Virus record (IMG/VR): IMGVR_UViG_3300025098_000053
Location: 1-55,938 of that record
Strand: one strand, 5' to 3'
Source: a virus
Length of the DNA: 55,938 bases
The notes under the pieces: generated by a model
Told to the model about the DNA's origin: nothing
The model's input: the letters and a program-made list of their open reading frames with translations, nothing else
Database searches by the model: none
Program-made: the position numbers and the translations under genes
Part shown: piece after piece, positions 3,835 to 55,627 of the stretch
How positions within the stretch are numbered: position 1 is the first letter of the stretch
How the letters are laid out: each line of letters opens with the position of its first letter

Positions 3835-3853
3835 CTTAATTAATTAACTTGGA

Positions 3854-4002
3854 TTTAAGTTCTAAGTATATGATATGATTATATTTTATTTAAGTTAATT
3901 AAGTTAATGAATTAAGTTGTTTATTTAAGTTGATTTAAGTTAGTTGATTTAAGTTCGAATTAAGTTCAAGTTAAATAATAAAGTTATTAAGTTATTTAAG
4001 TT
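3854..4002. repeat. TTAAGTT repeat array 1
   Basis: About ten exact copies of TTAAGTT on the plus strand in 150 bp, many extended to TTTAAGTT, with irregular spacing. One copy reads TTAAGTTCTAAGTATAT and recurs in the array at 4621. No ORF is visible. The array directly follows terL. Direct repeats of one short motif in AT-rich non-coding DNA resemble iterons or a clustered protein-binding site. Confidence 0.7.
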
Positions 4003-4016
4003 CGATTTGCAAATAT

Positions 4017-4043
4017 AAAAAAACCTTAGCTTTTGGGCCAAGG
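4017..4043 (-). terminator. Intrinsic terminator, leftward
   Basis: On the minus strand a 7-bp stem GCCAAGG-type arm (4043-4037) pairs with 4030-4024, with one G-U pair, followed by seven T (4023-4017). It ends the short leftward transcript of the 4164-4382 gene before the terL end. Confidence 0.8.
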
Positions 4044-4069
4044 TTGAAATAATATTAGTAAGTATAGAA

Positions 4070-4165
4070 TTAATCTCTGTTTGTTTGTTTTTTATAATCC
4101 ATATGTTTTAATGTATTGTTGCAGAAAATTAAACAGAGATTAACGTCGTGTTTGTGGCGTATATT
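4070..4165. other. 13-bp inverted repeat with CAGAGATTAACGTCG element
   Basis: TTAATCTCTGTTT (4070-4082) and AAACAGAGATTAA (4131-4143) form a perfect 13-bp inverted repeat with a 48-base loop. The right arm runs on into CGTCGTG (4144-4150), and TATATT follows at 4160. The same CAGRGATYAACGTCG core occurs at 12419, 38931 and 45185. The element lies just downstream of the 4164-4382 leftward gene. Confidence 0.6.
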
Positions 4166-4382: not shown

Positions 4383-4407
4383 CAGATTCTTTCTCCTTTA
4401 TATTAAA

Positions 4408-4421
4408 AATACTGATATATA
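4408..4421 (-). promoter_or_regulatory. Promoter-like TATATCAGTATT element, leftward
   Basis: The minus strand reads CTATATATCAGTATT shortly before the 4164-4382 start. It is a variant of the TATATTTCAGTATATAA motif that stands upstream of two divergent genes at 45865-45881 (minus) and 46282-46298 (plus). Confidence 0.35.
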
Positions 4422-4468
4422 GTTAGTTTATTATATTATAGTTTCTATTTACTAATAGATAATAAAAA

Positions 4469-4555
4469 ACAGATCTATATCTAAAGTGTTCTGTAATTAT
4501 TATATTCTATTCTTAAGATAGCTGATATTAGTAAGTATTTAGTATATAGATCTGT
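4469..4555. repeat. 12-bp perfect inverted repeat
   Basis: ACAGATCTATAT (4469-4480) and ATATAGATCTGT (4544-4555) are perfect inverted copies 63 bp apart in the 587-bp gap between the leftward 4164-4382 gene and the rightward KTSC gene. No ORF is present. It could be a cruciform or a paired operator. Confidence 0.5.
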
Positions 4556-4620
4556 TATTATTAAGTATGTATTAACATATCAATTATCTGAAACTTTTAC
4601 AAATTAATTTTTTATTTTAT

Positions 4621-4708
4621 TTAAGTTAATTAAGTTATTTAAGTTCTAAGTATATAATATTATTTAAGTTTATCTTAAGTTGAGGTACGAAACTTAAATA
4701 AATCTTAA
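4621..4708. repeat. TTAAGTT repeat array 2 with 28-bp core
   Basis: Five direct TTAAGTT copies, then a palindromic unit TTAAGTTGAGGTACGAAACT (4675 onward) continuing to TTAAATAAATCTTAA. The first 28 bases of this unit (4675-4702) recur exactly at 46032-46059, 41 kb away. The gap 4383-4969 holds no gene. Confidence 0.75.
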
Positions 4709-4794
4709 ATTAAATATAAAATAATTTTATAAATTTAGATGTTAGAGTATATATAATACTATAGATAATTAGATAATATATAAATAGATAATAA

Positions 4795-4804
4795 GAACCG
4801 GTTC
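4795..4804. repeat. GAACCGGTTC palindrome
   Basis: A perfect 10-bp palindrome with a CCGG centre in very AT-rich non-coding DNA about 110 bp upstream of the KTSC promoter. A dimeric repressor site is one possibility. Confidence 0.4.
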
Positions 4805-4911
4805 AAATTATTAGTCGTTAGAATATTATACTATACTTAATTTTCAGTATGTAAAACTTTTTTTTCTAAAAAGGTACTTTAACATATAATTAACTATGTA
4901 TTAAAATTAAT

Positions 4912-4940
4912 TTTACAAAATTACTGTATCTTCATATAAT
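4912..4940 (+). promoter_or_regulatory. Sigma70-like promoter for the KTSC gene and fibres
   Basis: TTTACA (4912-4917), 17-bp spacer, TATAAT (4935-4940), about 30 bp before the ATG at 4970. The -35 and the following AAA match the promoter at 54455-54483. A second TATAAT at 4885-4890 lies upstream. Confidence 0.7.
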
Positions 4941-4969
4941 ACGTTATAGATAATTAGTGAGTATAGAAG

Positions 4970-42241: not shown

Positions 42242-43093
42242 ATGAATTTGCCAGATGATAATATTGTAGAAGCTGATATAGCTATTGTTTTGACCGATAT
42301 TATTGGAAGCACAGCATTTGTGCAAAGAAATGGCAAACATGCTGCAGCAAAATGGTTTTCTGCACATGATAAACTTGTAATGAGTTTAATAACAAAACAC
42401 GGTGGGCAGTGGTTGGATAATTCAGATGGAACTTTAATGTATTTTGGTAATGTGCCAGATGCTATTGCTTTTGGATTTGCATATAAAAAGTTTTTAAGAA
42501 AGAAAAAGTTTCCATTTAGGAGTAGGATTGGCATTCACTGGGATAGTATGCTCATTGTAAAAACAGAACAGAGTTTAGTTTCCGGTGGAGCAAAGAGATT
42601 AGCCATCGAAGGTATTGGAAAAAATATTGCTGCAAGAACAATGAGCCTTTGTGGCCCTGAACAAATATTACTTTCACATACAGCATATACAATATTTAAA
42701 CAATACGGGCATCGAAATCCATTTATACCTAAAAAAGCATTATCAGCACTTGTAGGTTTATATAAATTTAAAGGTGTTGCAGAACCTGAGCGTATTTATG
42801 CTATAGGTTTAATAACAGAACAAATGCAACCGCCTAAAGATAGTGAAAAAGCAAAGCGAATTGGTGGCGCAAAGAAAATAAAAACAAGAATGAAACATAA
42901 ACGATGGAGTGAGATCTTCTTTTATTTTTATTGGAGGATTGGATTCATTGCTTTTTGTTATTGGATCTGGGTTTTCTGGCCATTATTAACATCTTCACAG
43001 ATGAAAAGCAGTTGGAATATTGATTATTGGTTTTTACGTCCGTTTGAGGCGATAGATTATTTAATATGTTTTATCAAGGATAACATAAAATGA
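42242..43093 (+). CDS. Class III nucleotidyl cyclase with C-terminal membrane anchor
   Basis: 283 residues. Residues 10-185 match the class III adenylate/guanylate cyclase catalytic domain: LTDIIGSTAFVQ (metal Asp at D19), HGGQWLDNSDGTLMYF (second metal Asp D62), RIGIH, and KNIAARTMSLCGPEQILLS with Asn128 and Arg132 of the transition-state site. All key catalytic residues appear present, so it should make cAMP, cGMP or another cyclic nucleotide; the base-specifying residues do not decide which. A hydrophobic helix at about 222-245 (FFYFYWRIGFIAFCYWIWVF) anchors it in the inner membrane, the reverse of the usual N-terminal sensor layout. Lies 3 bp after the TSP3 gene. Confidence 0.8.
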   Translation: MNLPDDNIVEADIAIVLTDIIGSTAFVQRNGKHAAAKWFSAHDKLVMSLITKHGGQWLDNSDGTLMYFGNVPDAIAFGFAYKKFLRKKKFPFRSRIGIHWDSMLIVKTEQSLVSGGAKRLAIEGIGKNIAARTMSLCGPEQILLSHTAYTIFKQYGHRNPFIPKKALSALVGLYKFKGVAEPERIYAIGLITEQMQPPKDSEKAKRIGGAKKIKTRMKHKRWSEIFFYFYWRIGFIAFCYWIWVFWPLLTSSQMKSSWNIDYWFLRPFEAIDYLICFIKDNIK

Positions 43094-44928: not shown

Positions 44929-45122
44929 TACCACTTACCAATCCATGAAAAATCTGATTCACCAACTGATCCTTTAACGAAATGAACAACATTTACAAAA
45001 TCTGATGGAAATGAAACATCTTGTAGTTTCTTTTTCTTTGCATCATACTTCTCAATTGCACCAACAATTTCTTCAAGTTTTTCCATGTAATATTTACGTT
45101 CTGCATCACTTGCAATCTTCAT
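44928..45122 (-). CDS. Hypothetical small protein (64 aa)
   Basis: 64 residues: helical Lys-rich N-terminal half (YMEKLEEIVGAIEKYDAKKK) and a short beta-like end (FVNVVHFVKGSVGESDFSW). AAGGAG before the ATG. It follows the palindromic element at 45175-45208, which carries a minus-strand -10, so it is likely the first gene of this transcript. Not recognised. Confidence 0.55.
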   Translation of the reverse strand: MKIASDAERKYYMEKLEEIVGAIEKYDAKKKKLQDVSFPSDFVNVVHFVKGSVGESDFSWIGKW

Positions 45123-45174
45123 AATCTCTCCTTAGTGTTATTAATTATTATATGTTTTATTTTTTGTTTGTTTA

Positions 45175-45276
45175 ATTATATTTTGGATCACGACGTTGAT
45201 CCCTGTTTGATGTTTTTCATTTACTTGATAGTTTATATAAACAATGCACACCATGTTTGTAGAGTTAAATCCTCGT
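45175..45276 (-). promoter_or_regulatory. Palindromic element with -10 box, leftward
   Basis: GGATCACGACGTTGATCC (45185-45202) is a perfect palindrome arm pair around CGACGT; on the minus strand it is preceded by AAACAG and followed 4 bp later by TATAAT (45180-45175). About 55 bp further upstream ACGAGGATTTAACTCT (45276-45261, minus) repeats the left arm of the hairpin at 12348. Best-conserved copy of the dispersed element. Confidence 0.6.
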
Positions 45277-45294
45277 ATCTGTAATAATCATAAA

Positions 45295-45825
45295 TCATAT
45301 CATTCTCTCCAATTTCTGTAATAGATCTTCGTGTGTTTCAAAACAAGGTGAAGCACGTTCTTTGTTGTAAAATTTAAAAGCTTTATCTTTGTTGATAAAT
45401 CCACAAACTTCATATGTATTTCTATTAAGTTTCTTTACCAAACAATAAATATCAGAAGCATATTTTTTTCTATGCCTTGGGATTAATAAATGTGCATGAA
45501 ACAATGTTTTAGTTGTTTTAACTTCAAGAGAATGTTTATTTCCATTCTTATCCTCAAAAACAAAATCCCATTTATCATCTTTTGATTTTCTGCTTTGAAC
45601 ATCTCTTGTTGAATCATCAAGAATTTTATAATTATATTTTTCTAAAAACTTCTTGATTACCCACTCACCTGATAAACCTAAAACATCACGTTTGTGTGTT
45701 TTTGGTGCAGGTTTATTTCCCCAAGAGTATTGCCTTGAGTTCTTCTTTGCATTTTCAAATCTTTGTTTTGCTAAAGAATCAATTTCTTTAAGCTCTGATG
45801 TCGTAAGATTTATTAGTAATCTCAT
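45295..45825 (-). CDS. PD-(D/E)xK-like nuclease
   Basis: 176 residues. SGEWVIKKFLEKYNYKILDD (helix with Glu), then KWDFVFEDKNGNKHSLEVKT with the Asp...Glu-x-Lys pattern, is the core of restriction-endonuclease-fold enzymes. The C-terminal part (YEVCGFINKDKAFKFYNKE) is beta-rich. It may act as a phage recombination, packaging or host-DNA nuclease; substrate is not shown. It has no clear Shine-Dalgarno sequence but a promoter-like TATATTTCAGTATATAA 40-56 bp upstream. First gene of the leftward group. Confidence 0.6.
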   Translation of the reverse strand: MRLLINLTTSELKEIDSLAKQRFENAKKNSRQYSWGNKPAPKTHKRDVLGLSGEWVIKKFLEKYNYKILDDSTRDVQSRKSKDDKWDFVFEDKNGNKHSLEVKTTKTLFHAHLLIPRHRKKYASDIYCLVKKLNRNTYEVCGFINKDKAFKFYNKERASPCFETHEDLLQKLERMI

Positions 45826-45864
45826 ATTCTTAAATAACTTTCTGATACTGTAGAAATTAGTATC

Positions 45865-45881
45865 TTATATACTGAAATATA
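45865..45881 (-). promoter_or_regulatory. Promoter-like motif, leftward copy
   Basis: Minus-strand TATATTTCAGTATATAA (45881-45865), identical over 17 bases to the rightward copy at 46282-46298. The two face away from each other and lead the divergent genes at 45825 and 46323. Confidence 0.5.
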
Positions 45882-45972
45882 ATAACTATTGTTATTTCTT
45901 AATATTAAGTATGTAGTTACTTTAGTTTTTATATAAATTAATTTAAATTATTTTATTTAATCTGAAAATGTA

Positions 45973-46101
45973 TTTAAGTTATTTAAGTTAAACTTTAAGT
46001 TATTTAAGTTAATTGTTTATATTAAGTTGTTTTAAGTTGAGGTACGAAACTTAAATAAAATCTTAATTAGTATTAATAACTTCTGATGATGAATTTAAGT
46101 T
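45973..46101. repeat. TTAAGTT repeat array 3 with 28-bp core
   Basis: Seven direct TTAAGTT copies plus one inverted copy in 130 bp, including the 28-bp core 46032-46059, identical to 4675-4702. A diverged half-copy (TTTAAGTTGAGTGTAACGAA) follows at 46094. No gene lies in 45826-46322. Confidence 0.75.
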
Positions 46102-46169
46102 GAGTGTAACGAAATCTTAAATGAAGAAGAAGAAGGGATATAGGGTAGTAGAAGAAGTAGGTGGCCGGG

Positions 46170-46179
46170 CGCGTACGCG
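46170..46179. repeat. GC-rich palindrome CGCGTACGCG
   Basis: A perfect 10-bp palindrome within GTGGCCGGGCGCGTACGCGT (46161-46180), a short GC-rich island in otherwise very AT-rich DNA, 70 bp after repeat array 3. Possible origin, nicking or regulator site. Confidence 0.5.
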
Positions 46180-46281
46180 TAGGGAAGCAACTTTTCAATC
46201 TCTCTTCAAAACCCTTATGTTTTATATAATAACAAATTTACAATGCAATTTACAAAATAAAAAAATAAATAGTTAAAATAC

Positions 46282-46299
46282 TATATTTCAGTATATAAT
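46282..46299 (+). promoter_or_regulatory. Promoter for endolysin, rightward
   Basis: TATATTTCAGTATATAA with TATAAT at 46294-46299, 23 bp before the endolysin ATG. Identical 17-bp motif on the other strand at 45865-45881; a variant TTTTCAGTATGTAA lies at 4841-4854. Confidence 0.55.
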
Positions 46300-46322
46300 T
46301 ACTTGATGAAAGGAATTGAAAT

Positions 46323-47087
46323 ATGTTTGAGTTAGTAAATAAAAACAAAGAGTATGTTAAACAACTTCAGGAAGAAATTGGAGTGCATGCTGACGGAATA
46401 TTTGGCAAGGGATCTTTGAAAGCTGCGGAGGAATATTATGGTGGCCCAGTAATTGCACATATGGGTAAAATTGTACCAATCCCAGGAGCATCATATGTTG
46501 TTGATCACAAACATTCATTATGGCAGCTGCCAGATGGCACCAGAAATCATCGAATGCGTAAAGGTGATGCTTCATCCATATGCGTTCATTGGGGTGGCTT
46601 AAACGTAAAACATTGTTATATGGTGTTTTTTGGTGCAAAGGATCGTCATGTATCTTCACACTTTGGAATTGGATGGGATCCAGTTGAAGAAAGATATGAA
46701 ATTGATCAATGGCTTGATACTGGTGTAGTTGCATATCATGCAGGAAAGTTTAATGGTTATTCAATAGGGATTGATATTACACAACATCCATCACCTAAAT
46801 ACCTCAAACATACACAAAAGTTTTATCCTGATGCACAAGTAATACCCAATCCTTCAGGGAGAGGCCCAAGTGAATGTGTTGATTTAGATCCAGAAATTGC
46901 AAGAATCGCATCTGAGTTTATTGAGGATTTAAGAAAGATTGCAGAATTGGATCATAAACCTAAATGTTTGGATGAAGAAGTATATTCTGTAAAAGATGCA
47001 TCAAAGTTTTCCGTTGTTGGGCATCACAATTTAAGTAAAAATAAATGGGATTGTGCTCCTTGGATGGAAGAATTATATGGAAATTAA
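46323..47087 (+). CDS. Endolysin: N-acetylmuramoyl-L-alanine amidase
   Basis: 254 residues. Residues about 10-40 (VKQLQEEIGVHADGIFGKGS) are a peptidoglycan-binding helix bundle. Residues 80-250 form an amidase_2 domain: CVHW with zinc ligand H89, SSHFGIGWD, VVAYHAGKFNGYSIGID, and a C-terminal GHHNLSKNKWDCAPW with a second His and a Cys ligand. The enzyme cuts the bond between muramic acid and the peptide, releasing virions. No signal peptide, so export needs a holin. First rightward gene after the divergent control region. Confidence 0.85.
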   Translation: MFELVNKNKEYVKQLQEEIGVHADGIFGKGSLKAAEEYYGGPVIAHMGKIVPIPGASYVVDHKHSLWQLPDGTRNHRMRKGDASSICVHWGGLNVKHCYMVFFGAKDRHVSSHFGIGWDPVEERYEIDQWLDTGVVAYHAGKFNGYSIGIDITQHPSPKYLKHTQKFYPDAQVIPNPSGRGPSECVDLDPEIARIASEFIEDLRKIAELDHKPKCLDEEVYSVKDASKFSVVGHHNLSKNKWDCAPWMEELYGN

Positions 47088-47214
47088 CACTTGAGCCAGC
47101 ACCATCAAAAAAAAGTTAAAAATAAATAGTCAATGAAAATCAACACTTAACAAAAAAATATAAAATAATTGTAAAAAAATTTAACAGTTTGCTCCACTCC
47201 CTTATAGTTAGTAG

Positions 47215-48233: not shown

Positions 48234-48755
48234 ATGATTTTAGCATTAGATATTTCAACAACAACAATTGGTGTTGCTCTGATAAATAACGGCAAAGTAA
48301 GTTCAATAAACTATATCAGTTTGAAGAAAACAAAAGATTTGATTGATAAAATTCAGGAAACAAGTGATTGGTTTGATAATGATCCAACATTTCAAAAAGT
48401 AAAATATAAAATTAAAGAAGTTCGTATCGAACAGTTTTTACAATCATTTAGAAAAGGCATGAGTTCTGCTGCAACAATTACAAAGTTGGCAGGATTTAAT
48501 ACAGCAGTTCAATACTTGATGTACGTTAAACTTTCTTTGCGTCCCAATATGATTGCCAGTAATGTTGCAAGGAAATCAATAGGGATTAAACTGGATAAAC
48601 AGAAAGATACAAAAGAACAAATCTGTGAATTCGTTCATCAGCATTATTATCCACTCCCAAGAAAGATTCTTAAAGGTGGCCCAAGGAAAGGGCAAGAAAC
48701 ATGGGCAGATCATGCAAATGATATTGCAGATGCCATTGTTATAGGTTTAAGTTAA
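48234..48755 (+). CDS. RuvC-like Holliday junction resolvase
   Basis: 173 residues, the usual size. RNase H-fold acidic residues: D6 in ILALDISTTTIGVAL, E66 in EVRIEQFLQSFRKG, and D159/D163/D166 in WADHANDIADAIVIG. It resolves branched DNA made during replication and recombination so that concatemers can be packaged. Together with the gp32-like gene at 49351 it marks the start of the DNA-metabolism region. The stop lies in a TTTAAGTT repeat. Confidence 0.8.
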   Translation: MILALDISTTTIGVALINNGKVSSINYISLKKTKDLIDKIQETSDWFDNDPTFQKVKYKIKEVRIEQFLQSFRKGMSSAATITKLAGFNTAVQYLMYVKLSLRPNMIASNVARKSIGIKLDKQKDTKEQICEFVHQHYYPLPRKILKGGPRKGQETWADHANDIADAIVIGLS

Positions 48756-48794
48756 ATCCAAGTTAAATCAACTTAAATAACTTAAATAACTTAA
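48746..48794. repeat. TTAAGTT repeat array 4 (mostly inverted)
   Basis: One direct TTTAAGTT (48746-48753) inside the end of the RuvC gene, one AAGTTAAA, and three inverted AACTTAA copies at 48770, 48779 and 48788. It lies exactly between the RuvC gene and the leftward gene at 48791 and spans both stops. Confidence 0.6.
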
Positions 48795-49219
48795 TTCAAA
48801 ACCCTCCCATCCAATCCAAAGATTTTAGTTTTAATAGCTTCTTGATCCATCATTACAACTTCTTCCTCTTCTCTGGGAATTGCAAGCATAACCAAAAGTT
48901 CAGCTTGTTTAGTATTAACACACCATCTTGAATCTGATAACTCACCTTTCTCATCTCTATTTTCCCAGAATATATCATTTAAGTGGTGTGCAATATCAGG
49001 AACATGTCGCAACATCTTTGTAATTGCTTCCTGATGATCTTCATTTAGTTCATCCCAACGTTTTGCAAAAAAAGTATGTATTTTTTTTAAGTATAAAAGA
49101 TAACCTTCACCCAAAGCAATTTTACCGTTTTGAGTGATCTTCTTTATCTCTTTATTAATCTCTTTCTCCGCCTCGCGTCTTTTTAATCGATTTATCTTCT
49201 TAGCAAAGTTATTACTCAT
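48791..49219 (-). CDS. Hypothetical protein (142 aa)
   Basis: 142 residues, Lys/Glu-rich helical N-terminus (KRREAEKEINKEIKKI), then IHTFFAKRWDELNEDHQEAI, and a C-terminal IKTKIFGLDGRVLN. AGGAG upstream. It is the only leftward gene in the 46.3-55.6 kb block and is transcribed against the resolvase. Not recognised. Confidence 0.55.
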   Translation of the reverse strand: MSNNFAKKINRLKRREAEKEINKEIKKITQNGKIALGEGYLLYLKKIHTFFAKRWDELNEDHQEAITKMLRHVPDIAHHLNDIFWENRDEKGELSDSRWCVNTKQAELLVMLAIPREEEEVVMMDQEAIKTKIFGLDGRVLN

Positions 49220-49350
49220 TTCACTTTTTCTCCTATTTAAATCATAATGTGAAAAATATTTTATTTTTATTTTATAAAATATAAAACTTCTTTAATATAT
49301 ATAATCATAATAAGCAAATTTATTATATTTTTTATCGAAAGGAAAAATAA

Positions 49351-50115
49351 ATGCTCAACATACAATATCTTAAAAATAGAATGAATGATATCCAACAACC
49401 CAAAGAAGTTGAAAAGGAAATTAAATATGTTAATTTTGAAGAAGGCAAAACATATAAGGTAAGATTTTTACCAATGGAAAACGGAAGTTTCTGTAATGAG
49501 TATTGGTTGTATTACGGAATCGCAAAGCAGTTTTTTAAATGCACACATAAATTAAATAAGCCAGATCCAATTCATGAAGAGTTTTTAAAGATACAACAAG
49601 ATCCCGGATTAAGTAATAACTGGAATTATTGTAAGCCATTCAAACCAAAGCTTCGTTGTGCTGCACCTGTAATTGTAAGAGGTGAAGAACATAAAGGAGT
49701 GCAAGTATTTACATTCAATGAAAAGATTTATGGAGATTTAATCTCAATCTTTATCCATGAAAAGTATCAAAATGCTGTTGATCCTGTAAATGGATTTGAT
49801 ATTGTTGTTAAAGCATATAAGAAAGATAAGTGGCTTCGTTTTGATATAAAGGGTGATGAATGGAGCACACAACTTAATATGGATATTTCAGCATTAACAG
49901 ATGATTTCCCTGATTTGGATAAGATCTATACTGAATATGATTATGACAGAATGAATGAATATTTAAGGGCATACAATAACCTTAATAAGCCACAACAGTT
50001 CAAAACAGAGCAATCTGGTGATCAAACTCCACCATGGAAATCATCTTGGAATCAAAATCAACCAGCATGGCAGCCAAATCAGTATAATGAGCAAGAAAAA
50101 GTAAAACCTTTTTAA
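49351..50115 (+). CDS. Single-stranded DNA-binding protein, gp32-like
   Basis: 254 residues. KYVNFEEGKTYKVRFLPMEN and a zinc-like segment FFKCTHKLNKPDP...NWNYCKPFKPKLRC, then FDIVVKAYKKDKWLRFDIKG, match the OB-fold of T4 gp32-type SSBs, which coat single-stranded DNA at forks and recruit recombination proteins. Two Cys pairs could replace the zinc site. The C-terminal end (QPNQYNEQEKVKPF) is polar rather than strongly acidic, unlike most SSBs. RBS AAAGGAAA. Confidence 0.7.
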   Translation: MLNIQYLKNRMNDIQQPKEVEKEIKYVNFEEGKTYKVRFLPMENGSFCNEYWLYYGIAKQFFKCTHKLNKPDPIHEEFLKIQQDPGLSNNWNYCKPFKPKLRCAAPVIVRGEEHKGVQVFTFNEKIYGDLISIFIHEKYQNAVDPVNGFDIVVKAYKKDKWLRFDIKGDEWSTQLNMDISALTDDFPDLDKIYTEYDYDRMNEYLRAYNNLNKPQQFKTEQSGDQTPPWKSSWNQNQPAWQPNQYNEQEKVKPF

Positions 50116-50174: not shown

Positions 50175-50780
50175 ATGCAAAATGCAACAGAAATGTGGAG
50201 AAAAATTGGATTATCTAATAAGTTTTCACCAGGCAACTTTGTAAGAAGAAAAGAAGTTAAATCAATATTAGGAGAAGAGGATTGGAAGAAAGAAGATTCT
50301 GAGTTTTATTTCTCTGATATGGCCTATAATCTATATTTGGATTGGGCAGCTCAAGAAGATGAAAAGAAAGAGCCAAAAGAAGAGATCGTTAAATCTGAAG
50401 TTAATGATTTATTTCTTATGATGTGTGATAAAATCGGTGAAACAAATGCAATTGAATATGCAAACAAATTGCTGAAGTGGTTTATTGTTGATAAGAGTTA
50501 TCATACATTATCTATTGAATTCAAAACAAAACACCCATTAAAATATGCAACAGGAAACCTTGAGAAATGCATTAAGATATATTTTCAGGTAATAATGGCG
50601 CATGTTGATTTGAGTGGCCAGCTTCATAGAAATGAAATAAGAAACCTTTGCCAAGATCTTCACAAAACATTTAACTCTTTATGGGTATCAAACTTTCATG
50701 ATAATAAATGTTTTAAGATTGGAAATGAATTATATGTTGCTGGAAACACAAATCGTTTGAAGAAAGTTATAGTGGGGTAA
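50175..50780 (+). CDS. Hypothetical protein (201 aa)
   Basis: 201 residues, mostly helical, with FVRRKEVKSILGEEDWKKED near the N-terminus and FQVIMAHVDLSGQLHRNEIR in the C-terminal half. AGGAG upstream. It follows the SSB gene and precedes a small coiled protein, so it might act in replication (for example loading), but no motif shows this. Confidence 0.55.
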   Translation: MQNATEMWRKIGLSNKFSPGNFVRRKEVKSILGEEDWKKEDSEFYFSDMAYNLYLDWAAQEDEKKEPKEEIVKSEVNDLFLMMCDKIGETNAIEYANKLLKWFIVDKSYHTLSIEFKTKHPLKYATGNLEKCIKIYFQVIMAHVDLSGQLHRNEIRNLCQDLHKTFNSLWVSNFHDNKCFKIGNELYVAGNTNRLKKVIVG

Positions 50781-54719: not shown

Positions 54720-54766
54720 TAAGAGTAGAACATGCAAAAGAACTCAATTAAATTAAGGAGAAGATG

Positions 54767-55627
54767 ATGAGTAAATTAAGTTTTGAAGATTTAGAAGAAA
54801 CAATTGCTGTAGATAAGAAATCAATGGAAGAAGAATTGTTTGCAGAAACAGATGATAGTATTCCATTACTCAGTGATACAGTTGTTGTATTAAACAAAAC
54901 ATTTACTCAACCTCAAGATGAATTAGCTTGGGATATTTGGGATTCAATCCCTAATGAGTTTCTTTGGAACGGATCAATGAAAAGCAGAAATGGCCTGAAA
55001 TATATACTTGAACAAAAAGGTATCTCCTTAAATGATCCTCAGGTTGCACAAGAATGCAAAGATAAAATATTGGAAGAAGCAGGAAAGGCAGCATTAACAG
55101 TTGATGATGCTATTTTTGATGATTTACTATCAATGAAATCTGATAATGAGGTTGCTGCTGTTTCACAAGAAGAATTCACACAACATGTTTCATCAAAACC
55201 TCCCCAAGAAGATAACACACTTCAATTGATGCAGCAACAGATGGATAAAATGCAAAACATCATTACACAACTATCAGAACGTGTTGTTATATTGGAAGAA
55301 GAAAACAAACTCTTAAACCAAATCAAAGAAGCACTCAATGAATCAGCTGCTAAATCTGAATCTTTAATTAAATCAACCCCAGAACAACAAACAAAAACAG
55401 CAGATCTCTCTCCAATAGAAATCATCAACACTTATACAACACCAAAGGAAGATACTCCACCAAAGAAAAGGAAACGTGGTCGCCCTGCAGGTTATAAAAC
55501 ATCCAATGCAACAAAAGAAAAACAACGCAAAGCAAGATTACTAAAATTAGAAAAACAAAAACGCAACCCCATCAATGAAACAGAACATAAACACAGAGAT
55601 ATGCAGTTTAACGTCTGTTTGAATTAA
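54767..55627 (+). CDS. Coiled-coil protein with AT-hook-like end
   Basis: 286 residues from the second ATG of ATGATG (AAGGAG six bases upstream; the first ATG would be only three bases away). N-terminal acidic globular part (ELAWDIWDSIPNEFLWNGSM), a coiled coil at about 155-195 (QLMQQQMDKMQNIITQLSER) and a basic end KKRKRGRPAGYKTSNATKEK, where RGRP is the core of an AT-hook that binds the minor groove of AT-rich DNA. Possible DNA-organising or transcription role. Not recognised. Last gene of the window. Confidence 0.55.
   Translation: MSKLSFEDLEETIAVDKKSMEEELFAETDDSIPLLSDTVVVLNKTFTQPQDELAWDIWDSIPNEFLWNGSMKSRNGLKYILEQKGISLNDPQVAQECKDKILEEAGKAALTVDDAIFDDLLSMKSDNEVAAVSQEEFTQHVSSKPPQEDNTLQLMQQQMDKMQNIITQLSERVVILEEENKLLNQIKEALNESAAKSESLIKSTPEQQTKTADLSPIEIINTYTTPKEDTPPKKRKRGRPAGYKTSNATKEKQRKARLLKLEKQKRNPINETEHKHRDMQFNVCLN

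Follow-up and report, generated by a model that had tools for sequence, protein, structure and literature searches.

Judging from its sequence, we lean toward the view that the 497-bp gap at 45826..46322 of a 55,938-base virus record (hereafter the window, which means this whole stretch of DNA) is a bidirectional promoter/operator control region of a contractile-tailed phage, and that it belongs to a duplicated, movable module. The same layout of sites occurs twice in the window, in this gap (module B) and at 4383..4969 (module A), and a 28-bp core common to both is conserved in a related phage (G001), where it is inverted. Such a region would entail promoter activity, protein binding, coordination of two gene pairs, and mobility, each of which is taken up below.

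The window carries terminase, portal, capsid, sheath, and baseplate genes and, judged by its sequence, is a contractile-tailed phage; amidase, RuvC-like, and PhoH genes are also encoded. A distant relative of 62,095 bases (G011) appears to represent almost an entire genome, circularly permuted, because its terminase gene is divided between the two ends of the record (residues 1-193 on one, 195-519 on the other). From this, and from the position of PhoH directly 5' of the terminase in two other relatives (G003 and G004), we take it that the window, too, probably lacks little of its genome. No match to the Pfam families DNA polymerase A, DNA polymerase B, or DnaB was found in the three records scanned (window 1-55938, G011 1-62095, and G001 1-50919), despite the resemblance of G011 to a full genome. 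A viral scan gave no relatives of the amidase, the nuclease, or the RuvC-like protein, the amidase was present in one of nine related records searched individually, and no terminase relatives were seen among genome contigs, so that these gave no hint of the host. The product of 42242-43093 weakly matches a guanylate-cyclase domain (E 0.019, below cut-off) and has counterparts in G001 and G011 that are 60-65% identical.

The gap is bounded by a nuclease-like gene on the minus strand (45295..45825), which has G-E...D...E-x-K residues in common with its G011 homolog and which we tentatively take to be of the PD-(D/E)XK type, and by an N-acetylmuramoyl-L-alanine amidase-like endolysin gene on the plus strand (46323..47087), identified by weak family matches that are below the Pfam cut-off. 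A RuvC-like gene (48234) and an SSB-like gene (49351) are located no more than 4 kb away, and the product of the latter (49351-50115) is related to phage single-strand DNA-binding proteins (seven phage records). A mostly helical protein (50175-50780) is encoded 3' of the SSB-like gene; its fold model was set aside as too poor for use (mean pLDDT 55.8). Another product, a 287-amino-acid protein encoded at 54764-55627, has a weak AT-hook match (E 0.11, below the Pfam cut-off) and is possibly a binder of AT-rich DNA. The matches of the AT-hook and SSB-like proteins are weak or indirect, and the roles proposed for them here are presumed ones.

Module B is delimited by its flanking open reading frames and its site content. 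Near its left end lies the outward-facing motif TATTATATTTCAGTATATAA (45865..45884, minus strand), which precedes the start codon of the leftward gene (ATG at 45825) by ~40 bp, and near its right end lies TACTATATTTCAGTATATAA (46279..46298, plus strand), 24 bp before the ATG at 46323. These 20-mers are alike except at one base and contain an identical 17-mer, TATATTTCAGTATATAA, at 45865-45881 (minus) and 46282-46298 (plus); the window has three occurrences of the 20-mer pattern with no more than three mismatches, where chance would give a mean of 0.08. Within the gap, TTAAGTT occurs eight times, both strands counted, compared with a mean of 0.65 and a maximum of 5 in 2000 Markov-resampled controls, which were first-order and not exact dinucleotide shuffles. 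Six of these sites form an array on the plus strand (45973..46038; starts at 45974, 45983, 45995, 46004, 46022, and 46032) with steps of 9, 12, 9, 18, and 10 bp. The last site opens the 28-bp core TTAAGTTGAGGTACGAAACTTAAATAAA (46032..46059, plus), which consists of TTAAGTT, GAGGTACGA, and the inverted AACTTAA, and which has one further exact copy in the window, at 4675. A purine-rich, locally GC-rich tract (46118..46186, plus; 77% purine) contains the palindrome CGCGTACGCG (46170..46179), which is unique in the window (chance mean 0.00) and lies in a gap of 22.5% GC.

The longest open reading frame wholly within the gap (46121-46276, 51 amino acids) contains the palindrome. It was rejected as a gene because of its codon use (z 0.62, compared with 3.0 to 6.3 in eight short reading frames taken as genes), and it has no PHROGs match and a best phage-collection match of only E = 5; on these grounds the gap is probably non-coding. 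An RNA hairpin in the core was likewise rejected, as its fold was no better than that of shuffles (z -0.8 and -1.4), and no Rfam match was found within the window. A search of the gap against the phage collection gave 11 records, with weak AT-rich matches only (best E 0.04).

The initial annotation, which had described a non-coding, divergently flanked gap holding a repeat array, the core, and a GC-rich palindrome in AT-rich DNA, was accurate in its coordinates (the flanking reading frames start at 45825 and 46323), and its account of the repeats, core, and palindrome agrees with ours. Its outward-facing pair of identical 17-mers is confirmed as well; calling them promoter-like calls for some reserve. 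There is a TATAAT at 46294-46299 by the right motif, no consensus -35 was seen to accompany it, and a sigma-70 scan of 45000-47200 gave seven sites against 13.2 in shuffles; one of the seven, a weak one (9/12), overlaps the left motif, and the right motif has no site. A promoter at the outward motifs may possibly be of a type other than sigma-70.

Module A (4383..4969), which the initial annotation overlooked, occupies the one other long divergent gap of the window, from which a small gene runs leftward and a KTSC-domain gene rightward. It contains the outward motifs TATCAGTAT (4409..4417, minus) and TTTCAGTAT (4842..4850, plus), the second exact core (4675..4702, plus), and its own GC-rich palindrome, GAACCGGTTC (4795..4804). 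In both modules the parts come in the same order, that is, outward motif, TTAAGTT sites, core, GC-rich palindrome, and outward motif. Of 17 perfect palindromes in the window of at least 10 bp with at least six G/C, only those of the two modules are outside reading frames. Of the 12 WTCAGTAT motifs found in the window, four are in modules A and B, all facing outward (resampled mean 0.16, maximum 2 in 2000), and none is in the other 15 of the 17 gaps longer than 100 bp, a list built on hand-chosen reading frames. All 24 copies of TTAAGTT within the 17 gaps are in just three, namely module A (six), module B (eight), and the gap after the terminase (ten). Both this word and WTCAGTAT are absent from a third divergent gap (49220-49350). 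The recurrence of outward motifs and arrays in the only other long divergent gap fits the initial suggestion of a control region or regulator binding sites; the word "master" was too strong, there being two such regions.

An array of 7-10 TTAAGTT copies lies directly after the terminase stop at 3835-4163 in the window, 2740-2820 in L003, and 1574-1657 in L033; its position and orientation are kept in the three phages, and a conserved terminator-like hairpin follows it. A small array with both orientations (48747-48796) overlaps the RuvC-like stop at a convergent junction. Between the module A core and the small gene there is a long inverted repeat (window 4465-4559; L003 2223-2331; L033 ~2180-2276), found at the same place in three phages with a different stem sequence. 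Its stem has one clear both-side change between the window and G001, and a different 12-bp stem is found in G002; the RNA fold is weaker in G002 (z -1.4 and -1.8) than in the window (z -3.5 and -3.1), and 9% of resampled window regions contain arms as long as these.

Among the 13 records searched, the core was found in two, the window and G001, and the array word (17-mer, no more than two mismatches) in three, the window, G001, and G002. The core search used an 18-mer with no more than three mismatches for G000 to G004, and a 12-mer with no more than one mismatch for G001 and G005 to G012. Most of the relatives are fragments, for which absence is weak evidence except at the terminase-to-fiber locus of G002 and in G011. 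A relaxed core search of viral contigs returned G001 alone again, and there were no exact 21-mer matches to the core in bacterial genomes. G001 has a single core, located in its equivalent of module A, where the whole region is 70% identical to that of the window over 570 bp and the core is reversed in place, its orientation turned round relative to the flanking genes. The long alignment of the two phages, from the terminase to the fiber-side genes, is ~72% identical, and the 61-bp stretch at 46009-46069, core included, is 95% identical to G001; the G001 core region matches copy A at 89% over 62 bp. All three core copies have one geometry: the core's own TTAAGTT is preceded at 10 or 11 bp by another copy of the word and followed at 16 bp by an inverted one. 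In G002, whose terminase is 83% identical, the module A locus is whole, with a seven-site array after the terminase, one exact TCAGTAT, and no core. The distant, near-complete G011 has neither core nor array, and its amidase, nuclease, and small gene follow one another in a single direction without a gap. The window has module B between its divergent amidase and nuclease genes, and its small gene adjoins module A. Because G011 keeps the three genes as one block, the modules mark sites of changed gene order, which is compatible with a moving cassette and also with promoters that arose where operons were split.

We suppose that the outward WTCAGTAT/TATAA elements would drive transcription of the nuclease-like gene on the left and of the endolysin gene on the right, with the TATAAT at 46294-46299 as a putative promoter giving a short leader to the amidase start. 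A DNA-binding protein would bind cooperatively to the TTAAGTT array and to the core, in which GAGGTACGA is surrounded by two direct copies of TTAAGTT and an inverted one; most array sites are 9-12 bp apart, about one helical turn, and the protein could sit on one face of the DNA. Once bound, it would set both promoters together, and the module of matching layout at 4383-4969 would govern the divergent pair there, so that both gene pairs would be set together. The core is predicted to work in either orientation, since its sequence is kept between relatives and its orientation is not, and the module may travel or be duplicated as a cassette where gene order changes. In favor of such control are the divergent reading frames with repeated outward-facing 17-mers and, clustered between them, repeated sites of the protein-binding type. 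Several observations stand against promoters and operators here: WTCAGTAT lies at no fixed distance from the start codon (about 25 to 120 bp), in module A the left motif nearly touches a ribosome-binding site, no -35 was seen, TTAAGTT arrays also follow the terminase and RuvC-like stops, where no promoter is needed, the core is confined to two of the 13 records searched and is missing from the G002 locus, and no candidate binding protein was found among the reading frames scanned.

The inversion and the changed gene order could instead mean that the region is first of all a mobile or recombining element, in which the core and its inverted TTAAGTT arms form an invertible or transposable unit or the repeats are points of cassette recombination, with regulation secondary. 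The core of G001 is inverted in place relative to module A and is nearer to copy B than to copy A though it lies at the locus of A, and the modules are located where the order departs from that of G011. Against this, neither a recombinase nor a transposase was found among the families searched, comparison with G002 showed neither a target-site duplication nor a clean empty site, and only three core copies are known. The two orientations are seen in different phages only. We consider this explanation unlikely.

As to replication, the initial annotation had offered an origin on the strength of iterons, AT-rich DNA, and a palindrome. An initiator would then bind the iteron-like array, melt the AT-rich DNA, and load host replication proteins, and module A would be a second or spare origin. 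Direct repeats beside AT-rich DNA are indeed present, the SSB-like and RuvC-like genes are close by, and the lack of polymerase A/B and DnaB matches suggests that the phage probably needs an origin recognized for the host enzymes. However, the gap contains no DnaA box (eight in the window against 13 expected) and no IHF-type match, the layout is present twice, the core and array are absent from G011 and the core from the complete G002 locus, and no initiator family was found in the reading frames scanned, many of which have no family at all. GC skew, which had been proposed as a check, is positive on both sides of the gap and dips only at minus-strand genes, largely contrary to an origin, though the lack of a turn at 46 kb is a weak test, since an origin working in one direction, or strongly biased transcription, would leave no turn. 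Skew tracks gene direction, because on the plus strand minus-strand genes have -0.078 and plus-strand blocks +0.111 (net for the window, +0.099). A literature search on iteron origins in divergent phage gaps, or divergent promoters with direct repeats, gave no match when all terms were required jointly, a negative of little weight. Nothing points to this gap as the origin site more than to other gaps; an origin here is not supported, and we regard it as unlikely.

It is doubtful, and quite improbable in our opinion, that the two ideas combine, in a movable cassette (the core with inverted site arms and two outward promoters) copied and flipped among phages lacking a polymerase, at which a phage protein would switch transcription and direct the start of host replication. 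It is very improbable that one protein acts at all four arrays as at a partition, centromere-like, or phage-wide silencing site: a 7-bp word arrayed in promoter regions recalls parS of pSM19035 (PMC9499535), and arrays lie at gene ends too, but at least four contiguous heptads are required according to that paper, against steps of 9-14 bp or more here, and the reading frames scanned include neither ParA/ParB nor a repressor gene. A functionless AT-rich spacer is hardly credible, as site counts exceed those of resampled controls and the core is conserved beyond coding DNA in another phage, which already disfavors chance, even though AT-rich DNA yields many short repeats and many repeats of the window are of low complexity.

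The proposed two-way control module provides a testable control element for an uncultured group of contractile-tailed phages, and its TTAAGTT word, core, and outward motif are searchable in other genomes and could be tied to a regulator. If the core truly moves and flips, phages may reuse a ready-made two-way control cassette. The case also reminds us that an impression of AT-rich iterons with a palindrome is insufficient for calling an origin.

Among known systems, immunity regions of the lambda type have operator sites placed between a pair of outward promoters. Module B is similar in that outward promoters, putative here, flank operator-type sites, and it differs in having arrays of an asymmetric 7-bp site instead of paired palindromic operators, a second locus, and no repressor gene identified. 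Iteron-type origins of plasmids and phages have direct repeats beside AT-rich DNA, as does module B; unlike them, the gap has no DnaA box, no initiator gene was found, and the layout occurs in two copies that are not kept in relatives. According to PMC9499535, parS of pSM19035 consists of 7-10 consecutive heptads overlapping promoters, and it resembles our arrays in using a non-palindromic 7-bp word, direct and inverted; its heptads are contiguous, whereas ours are 9-14 bp apart (smallest step 9 bp), with another word and no ParA/ParB seen. The stoperators of mycobacteriophages, described in PMC9283540 as numerous repressor binding sites spread across the genome, are alike in placing the sites of one protein over a phage genome, whereas the sites here, known from sequence, are clustered at four places, with no repressor gene identified. 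By analogy, the divergent operator regions of phages appear to be the closest known kind.
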